Shown in pieces: positions 12,938-16,650 of a stretch of DNA of 64,000 nt. The translations under genes and the position numbers were made by a program. Each line of letters starts with the position of its first letter. The stretch's first letter is position 1. The stretch comes from Bacteroidota bacterium (GTDB lineage Bacteria > Bacteroidota > Bacteroidia > NS11-12g > UBA955), in NCBI GenBank assembly GCA_023957335.1, contig JAMLHC010000003.1:124001-188000 (forward strand), read 5' to 3'. Below the pieces are notes generated by a model. That model worked only from the letters and a program-made list of their open reading frames with translations, did no database searches and had not been told where the DNA came from.

Positions 12938-14275
12938 ATGAAAAAATATGTTTTAATTTCTATTGTTTTTGCTTTTGGCAATAGTGCAGATTGTCAGACA
13001 CATGCACACGAATTATATGAGTATAAGCCGGCATATTCTGATGATTTTAACTCTTTTAACAGCAGCTTGTGGCGCACCAACGGCTGGAATCCGGAAACCC
13101 AACAAATGGGAGAATGGTGTCAAGAAAAGACATGGTTTACGGATAGTTGTGTTACATTTGAAAACGGAAAATTAAAAATCACACCATGGATAGGGGCTTA
13201 CATAAGCAATTGTGGCAATTATAAGTCCGGTTGTTTAACCTCCCAAAATGAATTTCTGTATGGCTATTATGAAGCACGTGTAAAAATGCCTACCCAACCG
13301 CTGAATGTTATCTCTTCATGGTGGAATGCAGGCGGATGTCTTTACAATGTCAGACCGGCTGCACTCTATAATGAGATTGATGTTTTTGAAACGGGAGACA
13401 CAAACAAAGCGAATATAACGGTTCTCTATGGTACAGATAAAAATGGATGTGTCTCAGGGAATGATGCAGGGTGTAGTTATGGAACTAATTATACCTCTAG
13501 AGTGCGAAATCCGATAGAAGATCAGCCAGTAACGGATAACCTGACAACTGCTTTCCATACTTTTGGTTTGGAATGGACTCCCGACATAGTGAATGTTTAT
13601 TTTGATGGTAACCTATTACAGAAGATAAGTATCTTGGAGAGCAATAAAGAGGATAAAGAACAAAAACCTTTCGGAGAGTATGTTTATATGAATAGGTTGA
13701 CCACCCCTGCAAGTTTTATGTTTTGGGCTAAAGCAATTGATACAACTAGAGAAAACAAAGATAGGGTTAACGACCCACAACCCAATGGAACTGCTTCCTT
13801 AGAGGTTGATTATTTTCATTATTATAAGCCTAAGCCGGTACTAAAAAGAGTGCAATGCAATAACGACACATTGATATTGTCTTCCTCCACCATCGTTAGA
13901 GGTGAAAGCTATTTGTGGTCTGTGGATTCAGGAAACTTGTCTCTTGTTAGTCATGATTCGGGTACAGCGACTTTCAGGATTCCTTCAGGATATATTTCTT
14001 CCGTGGTGTCAGTAAGTGCAACGGGCGGAGTCCCAAATACAAGTGCAACATCTGTGTATTCGATTATCAAAAGCACTGACGGCAATTTTTGCACACCGGA
14101 TTCTTTGGGCAATACTTCTACACTCTTTTTTGCACCCTTTATTAATGCACCTCAATCGGGTTGTTCCTCCACTGTCATTCCATCAGGAAAAGAAGTGATT
14201 TTTGTTGGAGAAAACGGGGTTGCTCTTAACCCCGGTTTTGAAGTTGAGTTGGGCGCGACATTTTCTGCATTTTAA
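12938..14275 (+). CDS. Secreted glycoside hydrolase family 16 (beta-glucanase/laminarinase-like)
   Basis: 445 residues. Signal peptide to about residue 20, then a GH16 beta-jelly-roll (about 30-297). The catalytic signature is EIDVFE with Glu146 as nucleophile, Asp148 and Glu151 as acid/base; substrate-side aromatic residues include SSWWNAGG. After the catalytic domain comes an Ig-like segment (about 300-375). A terminal module (377-445, ending GFEVELGATFSAF) resembles the coathanger-type repeats seen at the ends of Bacteroidota secreted proteins. GH16 enzymes cut beta-1,3/1,4-glucans or galactans; the exact glycan cannot be told. Its C-terminal module is duplicated downstream. Confidence 0.85.
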   Translation: MKKYVLISIVFAFGNSADCQTHAHELYEYKPAYSDDFNSFNSSLWRTNGWNPETQQMGEWCQEKTWFTDSCVTFENGKLKITPWIGAYISNCGNYKSGCLTSQNEFLYGYYEARVKMPTQPLNVISSWWNAGGCLYNVRPAALYNEIDVFETGDTNKANITVLYGTDKNGCVSGNDAGCSYGTNYTSRVRNPIEDQPVTDNLTTAFHTFGLEWTPDIVNVYFDGNLLQKISILESNKEDKEQKPFGEYVYMNRLTTPASFMFWAKAIDTTRENKDRVNDPQPNGTASLEVDYFHYYKPKPVLKRVQCNNDTLILSSSTIVRGESYLWSVDSGNLSLVSHDSGTATFRIPSGYISSVVSVSATGGVPNTSATSVYSIIKSTDGNFCTPDSLGNTSTLFFAPFINAPQSGCSSTVIPSGKEVIFVGENGVALNPGFEVELGATFSAF

Positions 14276-14400
14276 AATCAAACTATTATGAAAAAAATAA
14301 CTTTTTTATTCTTAAGCGTTTTCCTAATCCTATCGTGTAAGAAAGATAAAAATCAGGAAGAAGTCCTTACAGGAGTTGTAAGTAAAGGGATGGTGTATGT
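14069..14400 (+). repeat. Repeat unit A: GH16 C-terminal end plus lipoprotein N-terminus
   Basis: First copy of a segment running from the codons for KSTDGNFC of the GH16 gene across its stop, the 12-base spacer and the first about 37 codons of lipoprotein 1. Closely related copies start at 14917 (unit B), and partial copies occur at 15748 and 16437. The identity spans coding and spacer DNA, so it reflects DNA duplication and not protein convergence. Confidence 0.8.
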
Positions 14401-14854
14401 AGAAGATATTAAATTTAAACGAGATACTTTGGATTATGGAGAGTATTTTATCGATTTTAATGAGGATGGGGAAAATGATTTTATTTTTATAGATTGGCTG
14501 CCCTCACATCCTGTTAGCTTATTTAATCCGTTAAAGTTGCAGTCTAATAAAATTAGTGTTTATGTGCAAGATTTAGTTATAAGCGATGATGGTTCTTATT
14601 ATTATAGAGGATTTATCAAACGATTAGGCTACAAAGAGAAAATAGGTAGTGGTAGCGGATTCTGGTCTCCTTTAGAGGGTACTTATAATAGTTTGCCTTT
14701 AAGGTTTAATTATTTTGAACTAGAGGATGCTTTTCGGGTAAACGAGGGGGGTTATATTGGAGTGCGTGTTGTGCAAGGCAAGGATACACTATACGGTTGG
14801 ATAAATATAAGCGATAAGTTAAACCCAATAGAATCGGCATGTGAGCGAAAGTAA
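14288..14854 (+). CDS. Lipoprotein family member 1 (unknown function)
   Basis: 188 residues. Lipoprotein signal peptide with lipobox ILSC (Cys17) followed by KKDKN. A calcium-loop-like motif D-x-N-x-D-G-x-x-D lies at 56-64 and a conserved tail YIGVRVVQGKDTLYGWINIS near residues 156-175. Starts 12 bases after the GH16 gene. Paralogues follow at 15136 and 15764, and a broken one at 16481. The first 37 residues are nearly identical among copies, while the middle differs strongly. Probably lies in the outer membrane or on the surface. No known family name can be assigned. Confidence 0.75.
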   Translation: MKKITFLFLSVFLILSCKKDKNQEEVLTGVVSKGMVYVEDIKFKRDTLDYGEYFIDFNEDGENDFIFIDWLPSHPVSLFNPLKLQSNKISVYVQDLVISDDGSYYYRGFIKRLGYKEKIGSGSGFWSPLEGTYNSLPLRFNYFELEDAFRVNEGGYIGVRVVQGKDTLYGWINISDKLNPIESACERK

Positions 14855-14901
14855 GGAGGATTTAGTTTTAATTATAGTAATATGGAAAATAGTGAATCAA
14901 T

Positions 14902-15123
14902 ATGGTTAAATTTATAAAAAGCACTGACGGTAATTTTTGCACATTGGATTCGTTGGGCAATACTCCTACACTCTTTTTTGCACCCTTTATTAATGCACCT
15001 CAATCGGGTTATTCCTCCACAGTGATTCCGTCAGGTAAAGAAGTGATATTTATTGGAGAAAACGGGGTTGCTCTTAACCCCGGTTTTGAAGTTGAGTTGG
15101 GCGCAACATTTTCGGCATTTTAA
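14902..15123 (+). pseudogene. Duplicated fragment of the GH16 C-terminal module
   Basis: An open frame of 73 codons that reproduces GH16 residues 377-445 (IKSTDGNFC to GATFSAF) with a few substitutions, including Cys to Tyr in QSGYSS. It has no signal peptide and no catalytic part. Its ATG comes from unrelated flanking sequence, so it is best read as debris of the duplication that produced lipoprotein 2. The conserved frame leaves open that a short product is made. Confidence 0.7.
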
Positions 15124-15723: not shown

Positions 15724-15763
15724 AATTTTTACATTATTGTAACCTGTTTAAAATCATACTATT

Positions 15764-16396
15764 ATGAAAAAAACAACTATTCTATTCTTAAGCGTTTTCC
15801 TAATCCTATCGTGTAAGAAAGATAAAAATCCAGAAGAAGTCCGTGCAGGGGTGGTAAGTAAAGGGATGGTGCATAAAGAATTTGAGCCGCAGATTCTTGC
15901 GTATTATACTTTAGATGATAAGTTTAGCACTTGCCAAGTAGATTGTAATATGGATGGCACAGTTGATTTATCATTTTCAATCTCAAATACAAGTTCAGGT
16001 ATAAATACGATTGCAAGATTAGATAATCATCCTTCCAATAAATTTAGTATTTGTCTTACGGATACGAATTACTCTTTAAGAAATTATCCAAATATTCCTG
16101 CCTATATTTATTACACGGGACTAGTTAAACGACTTGAATATAAAGAAATTATAAATGAAAGAACAGGGGTGTGGTCTCCAATGGATTCGACTTTTAATAA
16201 CGTGCGATTGCTTTTTGGACAGCTTCATATGGCAAATCTAGGGTCTGTTACAGGTGAATGGGAAAATTCTATGAATAAATATATTGGAATCCGTTTTATA
16301 GAAGATAATGATACATTATACGGATGGTTGCAAGTTTCTCTTTCTGGAGTTAATGAAAAACTGATTTTATATGATTGTGCCTTCCAAAGAAAATAA
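15764..16396 (+). CDS. Lipoprotein family member 3 (unknown function)
   Basis: 210 residues, third full paralogue. Lipobox ILSC (Cys17), linker KKDKNPEEVRAG, D-x-N-x-D-G-x-x-D at residues 60-68 (DCNMDGTVD), tail KYIGIRFIEDNDTLYGWLQVS. The DNA from about 15748 through the first 35 codons matches the other copies, but here the upstream GH16 fragment is missing. Its KNPEEVRAG variant is shared with the broken copy 4, showing that the two are close relatives over this part. Confidence 0.75.
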   Translation: MKKTTILFLSVFLILSCKKDKNPEEVRAGVVSKGMVHKEFEPQILAYYTLDDKFSTCQVDCNMDGTVDLSFSISNTSSGINTIARLDNHPSNKFSICLTDTNYSLRNYPNIPAYIYYTGLVKRLEYKEIINERTGVWSPMDSTFNNVRLLFGQLHMANLGSVTGEWENSMNKYIGIRFIEDNDTLYGWLQVSLSGVNEKLILYDCAFQRK

Positions 16397-16436
16397 ATAC
16401 TCTGCTATTCAGGATGTTAATAGGGAGCAATCAAAC

Positions 16437-16650
16437 TTGAGTTGGGCGCGACATTTTCTGCATTTTAAAATCAAACTATTATGAAAAAAACAACTATTGT
16501 ATTAGTGAGCGTTTCCCTAATCCTATCGTGTAAGAAAGATAAAAATCCAGAAGAAGTCCGTGCAGGAGTGGTAAGTCCAGTTGGTTGTGCACATGAGTAA
16601 CGTGTCCTTGTTACTACTCTCGCTTCTCGTTTAATTAATTTAGATTTGGG
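16437..16650 (+). pseudogene. Broken lipoprotein copy 4 with GH16-end remnant
   Basis: Positions 16437-16483 are identical to 14244-14290 (end of the GH16 gene, spacer and next ATG). The ATG at 16481 opens 39 codons (MKKTTIVLVSVSLILSC, then KKDKNPEEVRAGVVS) and ends at TAA 16598-16600. Beyond the stop, in the same frame, LVTTLASRLINLD matches residues 44-56 of lipoprotein 2. Similarity ends near 16646, just before the convergent dehydrogenase gene. The front half resembles copy 3 and the back half copy 2, so it is a mosaic. It cannot make a full lipoprotein. Confidence 0.8.

Follow-up and report, generated by a model that had tools for sequence, protein, structure and literature searches.

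Within the window, the 64,000-nucleotide stretch of Bacteroidota DNA analysed here, a GH16 hydrolase gene is followed on the plus strand by a run of related lipoprotein genes. The hydrolase (12938..14275; 445 aa) has a PF00722 match of 37.5 bits, above the gathering score of 22, and carries the ExDxxE catalytic motif as EIDVFE at residue 146; its C-terminus is a GCX_COOH domain (NF045639), which scores 32.2 bits against a curated cut-off of 26. The protein shows no type IX sorting domain of type A or B, and no Por_Secre_tail or CHU_C match. A second GCX_COOH end lies downstream as an orphan ORF of 73 aa (14902-15123, plus strand; 37.4 bits against the same model), with no apparent signal peptide. 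Both ends resemble other NF045639 proteins in exceeding the family cut-off, but in most other genomes examined the domain lies ~90 or more residues before the C-terminus, often with a T9SS tail there, whereas here it sits at the very end of the protein and one of the copies is an orphan. A literature search found no paper naming GCX_COOH under that name or as a coathanger stack.

The three complete small genes downstream, all on the plus strand, are lipoprotein 1 (14288..14854; 188 aa, lipobox Cys17), lipoprotein 2 (15136..15723; 195 aa) and lipoprotein 3 (15764..16396; 210 aa); all three are predicted to be bacterial lipoproteins by pattern, with a hydrophobic N-terminal signal and an LSC-17 lipobox. 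They belong to a single family, lipoproteins 2 and 3 being 43% and 47% identical to lipoprotein 1, and AlphaFold2 run on the three-row alignment gave a pLDDT of 44.6. A distant version of the family, marked by DxDxD and by YIGxRF..YGW at the C-terminus, gave matches in 72 of the 395 class genomes, frequently in tandem.

Upstream of the hydrolase is a Peptidase_S74 (chaperone of endosialidase) gene on the plus strand (11818..12927; PF13884, E 5e-10) encoding a coiled coil and a type A T9SS tail, the latter from a TIGR04183 match above cut-off on its second part; these coordinates read through an in-frame TAA at 12496-12498 that splits what is otherwise one reading frame. The whole region from 11348 to 16660, between rimP and an SDR gene, is absent from the sister species G001: alignable sequence runs up to 11347 and begins again at 16685, and the rimP-SDR gap there is 168 bp against ~5.4 kb here (gene coordinates in L085). 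GC content inside the stretch is ~0.30-0.40, somewhat below that of the flanks. The 5.4-kb island may have been gained here or lost in G001: rimP-SDR adjacency was not seen outside the genus, and the genus comparison comprises one other species only. Adjoining the array, positions 18967-21609 encode an 880-aa protein with repeats of the 'WDVSNVTNMxxMFxxA' type. Two other routes were considered and set aside: for invertase-type switching, a scan at minimum length 20 gave only imperfect inverted repeats with widely separated arms, none local to the array, and for mobile-element insertion at a tRNA, the window contains no tRNA.

What ties the genes together is a repeated junction block consisting, in order, of the 3' end of the GH16 gene with its GCX_COOH '3-coathanger stack' domain, the stop codon, a 12-base spacer and the lipoprotein start. 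The first-pass annotation had placed such blocks at 14069, 14917, 15748 and 16437, and all four are present within a few bases of those positions. Copy 1 (14064..14363, plus strand), which runs through the signal peptide of lipoprotein 1, and copy 2 (14912..15211, plus strand), which contains the orphan GCX_COOH end, are 94% identical over 300 nt and lie at a clean spacing of 848 bases; a 147-nt core of the block is found twice more, at 15717-15863 (82%) and 16434-16580 (90%). When the 300-nt block was searched against the whole genome (2.77 Mb, 7 contigs), it matched exactly four places, all in this array (E values of 6e-155, 5e-129, 2e-45 and 3e-34); the four-copy repeat is real, confined to a single place in the genome, and far beyond chance. 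Judging from the sequences, the array is unlikely to be an artefact of assembling one read tract twice, because the copies differ from one another.

The two downstream blocks had been described as shorter versions of the same unit, which is correct as to their presence but understates how reduced they are. Copy 3 (15747..15839, plus strand) retains just a few terminal bases of the GH16 end, with the spacer and the start of lipoprotein 3, and copy 4 (16434..16647, plus strand; matching segments 16434-16556 and 16607-16647) has ~36 bp of GH16 end followed by a lipoprotein 5' fragment with in-frame stops. Copy 4 is also composite: its GH16 end is closest to copy 1, its signal-peptide region to copy 3 and the sequence further in to lipoprotein 2. 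By these features the fourth lipoprotein is a truncated mosaic pseudogene, and it coincides with the right edge of the stretch missing in G001. The left edges of the GH16 remnants are all different, at 14912, 15747 and 16434.

A discontinuity in age is evident along the lipoprotein genes. In 20-codon windows identity is 0.95-1.0 at the start, ~0.8 by codons 21-40, then 0.3-0.65, rising to ~0.6-0.77 at the C-terminal 'YIGIRF..YGW' motif; the profile that had been noted from the sequence, a peak at the junction, a drop inside the lipoproteins and similar ends, is thus borne out and is not uniform. Codon alignments give a dS of 0.10-0.20 over codons 1-36 for all three lipoprotein pairs; in the middles, dS is 1.1-1.75 (saturated) and dN 0.67-0.94, again for all three pairs. 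The 5-10 fold higher dS in the middles than at the junction is significant for each pair (Fisher P of 6e-4, 9e-5 and 5e-5), which on silent sites makes the lipoprotein bodies older than the junctions that precede them. The middles had been ascribed to fast divergence, an explanation that these values contradict: silent sites jump together with amino-acid sites, which excludes rapid selection on the middles as the cause.

The orphan GH16 end carries a further signal. Between copy 1 and copy 2 the GH16 3' end differs by a dS of 0.22 and a dN of 0.03 (dN/dS ~0.13), and relative to copy 1 the copy 2 orphan shows 4.5 nonsynonymous changes versus ~17 expected had it been dead throughout (P ~0.001 under a simple half-branch model). 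These figures are based on ~14 substitutions and a crude model; on that model the orphan end appears too constrained (P ~0.001) for a fragment that has been dead since birth. From this low dN/dS we infer that most of the divergence between the two GH16 ends probably accrued while copy 2 still formed the end of an intact gene, as would be expected of a displaced allele.

A second array of the same kind lies elsewhere in the genome (G000:C3:91075-92415, minus strand), where a 152-aa remnant comprising GCX_COOH and a T9SS tail, a 228-aa lipoprotein and an orphan GCX_COOH end of 60 aa repeat the layout of the window array: GCX_COOH end, lipoprotein, orphan GCX_COOH. All four GCX_COOH matches in the genome fall within these two arrays. 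The syntenic counterpart in G001, spread over two overlapping contigs, has a full-length GCX gene of 982 aa. Between the two species dS at this locus is 0.22 in the GCX tail, 0.19 over lipoprotein residues 1-145 and 0.14 in the orphan, then ~1.4 in the next stretch of the lipoprotein and 1.3 in the adjoining transporter; for the six genes tested around the window array it is 1.7 or more, with two saturated. The orphan itself shows relaxed constraint between the species (dN 0.065, dS 0.136). These values point to recent exchange of a module between species, together with replacement, that is, allelic change, inside the lipoprotein. Low dS also extends to a ferredoxin gene (0.16) and fades over the next two genes (0.52 and 0.64); the exchange thus reached beyond the module and may not be specific to it.

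Several other features were observed around the second locus. Genes for tRNA-Gly, tRNA-Leu and the RNase P RNA lie beside it, and next to these, ~1.1 kb from the array, is an ORF (L075 3270-3977) which we take to resemble an IS1595-type transposase. The lipoprotein gene there (L119 152-204; matching part of L075 5261-5947) contains an inverted repeat with arms of ~25 nt near the point at which the species diverge, and the G001 copy of the gene has an early stop relative to G000.

GCX_COOH was found in 131 of the 395 sampled genomes of the class, and two other families have comparable junction-centred patterns. In G204 a lipoprotein-GCX pair occurs twice; in their N-region, over codons 31-55, the two lipoproteins are ~95% identical, but their bodies beyond this are saturated, and the GCX proteins have C-termini that are 91% identical and N-termini that are unrelated. 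In G187 an S74 gene and a GCX protein gene precede a tandem pair of genes related to the window lipoproteins; both encode T9SS tails, and an 89% repeat straddles the gene junction. Genes upstream of GCX encode S74-type coiled-coil tails by pattern in 14 of 42 cases, a count made without a control. As separate observations, three loci, each in a different genome (L207, L209 and L211), have T9SS-tailed tandem relatives of the lipoprotein family next to a conserved gene with LLGWDAADW as its N-terminal motif, and G343:C23:177193-190304 holds several tandem GCX_COOH proteins of ~950-1000 aa.

The best reading of the locus, we suggest, is a small and partly decayed array in which each module joins the 3' end of a gene for a secreted, GCX_COOH-bearing hydrolase to the lipoprotein gene behind it, the array having arisen by homology-anchored displacement or shuffling of divergent modules. 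We put the probability of this origin at about one half. Modules would enter serially through recombination anchored in the conserved junction, each new one placing a fresh hydrolase end and lipoprotein in front; the older lipoprotein would be shifted downstream, with a stump of its former hydrolase gene still in front of it, and later homologous recombination would partly homogenise or shuffle the junctions. This reading draws on the low dS of the junctions and high dS of the bodies, the constrained orphan end, the differing remnant edges and mosaic copy 4, the second locus, and the G204 and G187 patterns. Against it, no donor allele turned up: neither lipoprotein 2 nor the GH16 gene has a close counterpart in any of the 97 relatives searched, and the 395 class genomes yielded distant members of the lipoprotein family only. 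The non-significant excess of lipoproteins behind GCX genes (16 of 49 loci, against 5 of 25 for ordinary T9SS genes) and the width of the low-dS tract at the second locus also count against it. The lipoproteins would most simply be variants of a single partner that the secreted hydrolase has in the cell envelope, with binding, anchoring, folding and self-protection as candidate roles. The earlier description of the genes as a diversifying surface-protein set fits the predicted lipoprotein signals, the Bacteroidota-wide and often tandem occurrence of the family, and the allelic change seen at the second locus.

The closest rival to displacement is gene conversion among old paralogues, in which gene conversion or unequal crossing-over between long-standing tandem copies keeps the junction alike and halts where the bodies are too diverged to pair. 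Such concerted evolution would account for the drop in dS at the junction and for mosaic copy 4 without invoking donors, and tandem paralogues of the lipoprotein family are common in Bacteroidota; however, changes in the orphan fragment after the last conversion should then be near neutral, yet its dN/dS is ~0.13, and conversion alone leaves unexplained both the unequal lengths of the remnants and the low dS between the species at the second locus. We consider it less probable than displacement. It is improbable that the array arose by simple tandem duplication, through unequal crossing-over, of an 848-bp unit of GH16 end plus lipoprotein followed by rapid positive selection in the middles. 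The clean spacing of copies 1 and 2 and the high dN of the lipoprotein middles are what such a history would produce, but selection on amino acids should leave dS unraised; one dS would be expected along the whole unit, and a dead GH16 end should not remain constrained. The first-pass proposal of repeated unequal recombination with replacement of the middle part therefore survives as regards recombination at a conserved junction and replacement of the middle, in keeping with the dS jump, the mosaic fourth copy and the three remnant left edges, but hardly in the form of simple tandem duplication of one unit.

A different kind of alternative concerns function and can hold together with the displacement mechanism: the locus could be a polymorphic array of secreted effectors and immunity proteins, in which GCX_COOH hydrolases act on competitors and the lipoproteins confer immunity, older ones being kept as orphan immunity genes. 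By analogy this is conceivable, though we think it doubtful. GH16 enzymes are normally degraders of polysaccharide, which counts against such a role; the main gene here has GH16 and GCX_COOH domains only, with no match to a known toxin domain or delivery part and no PADLOC match, and lipoproteins are not significantly commoner behind GCX genes (16 of 49 loci) than behind ordinary T9SS genes (5 of 25). In its favour, several GCX genes that precede lipoproteins encode hydrolase domains: beside the GH16 gene here, three of ten such GCX proteins elsewhere match alpha/beta-hydrolases and one of the ten an M43 protease. The architecture is also that of the T6SS immunity arrays of Vibrio cholerae, for which a homology-anchored displacement model has been proposed and in which the old 3' effector end is retained (PMC5361080); common to both are divergent small genes behind one intact effector-type gene, together with the 3' end of a displaced gene, but the present locus lacks a T6SS and VgrG, has a GH16 hydrolase as its intact gene, and has as its small genes lipoproteins of a single family whose immunity role is only putative. 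CDI/Rhs orphan modules likewise consist of a fragment of the large gene without translation signals and an intact small gene, swapped by recombination at a conserved anchor (PMC3150448). Copy 2, with ~205 bp of GH16 end and an intact lipoprotein 2, has this composition of main-gene fragment plus intact small gene downstream; in CDI/Rhs, however, recombination is anchored ahead of a variable C-terminal toxin, whereas here the C-terminal domain itself serves as anchor and it is the downstream gene that varies.

More broadly, and as a long shot, GCX_COOH hydrolases and their downstream lipoproteins might form a Bacteroidota-wide polymorphic system of effectors and partners, perhaps immunity proteins, in which the hydrolase C-terminal domain would serve as a recombination anchor for swapping lipoprotein cassettes and leave orphan arrays behind. 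If the displacement reading is right, the cassette displacement of toxin-immunity loci would also act in Bacteroidota on loci for secreted hydrolases and lipoproteins that look ordinary, and its signature, a young junction, an old body and orphan 3' gene ends, would offer a way to spot secreted enzymes, many lacking a known function, that have a dedicated partner in the envelope.
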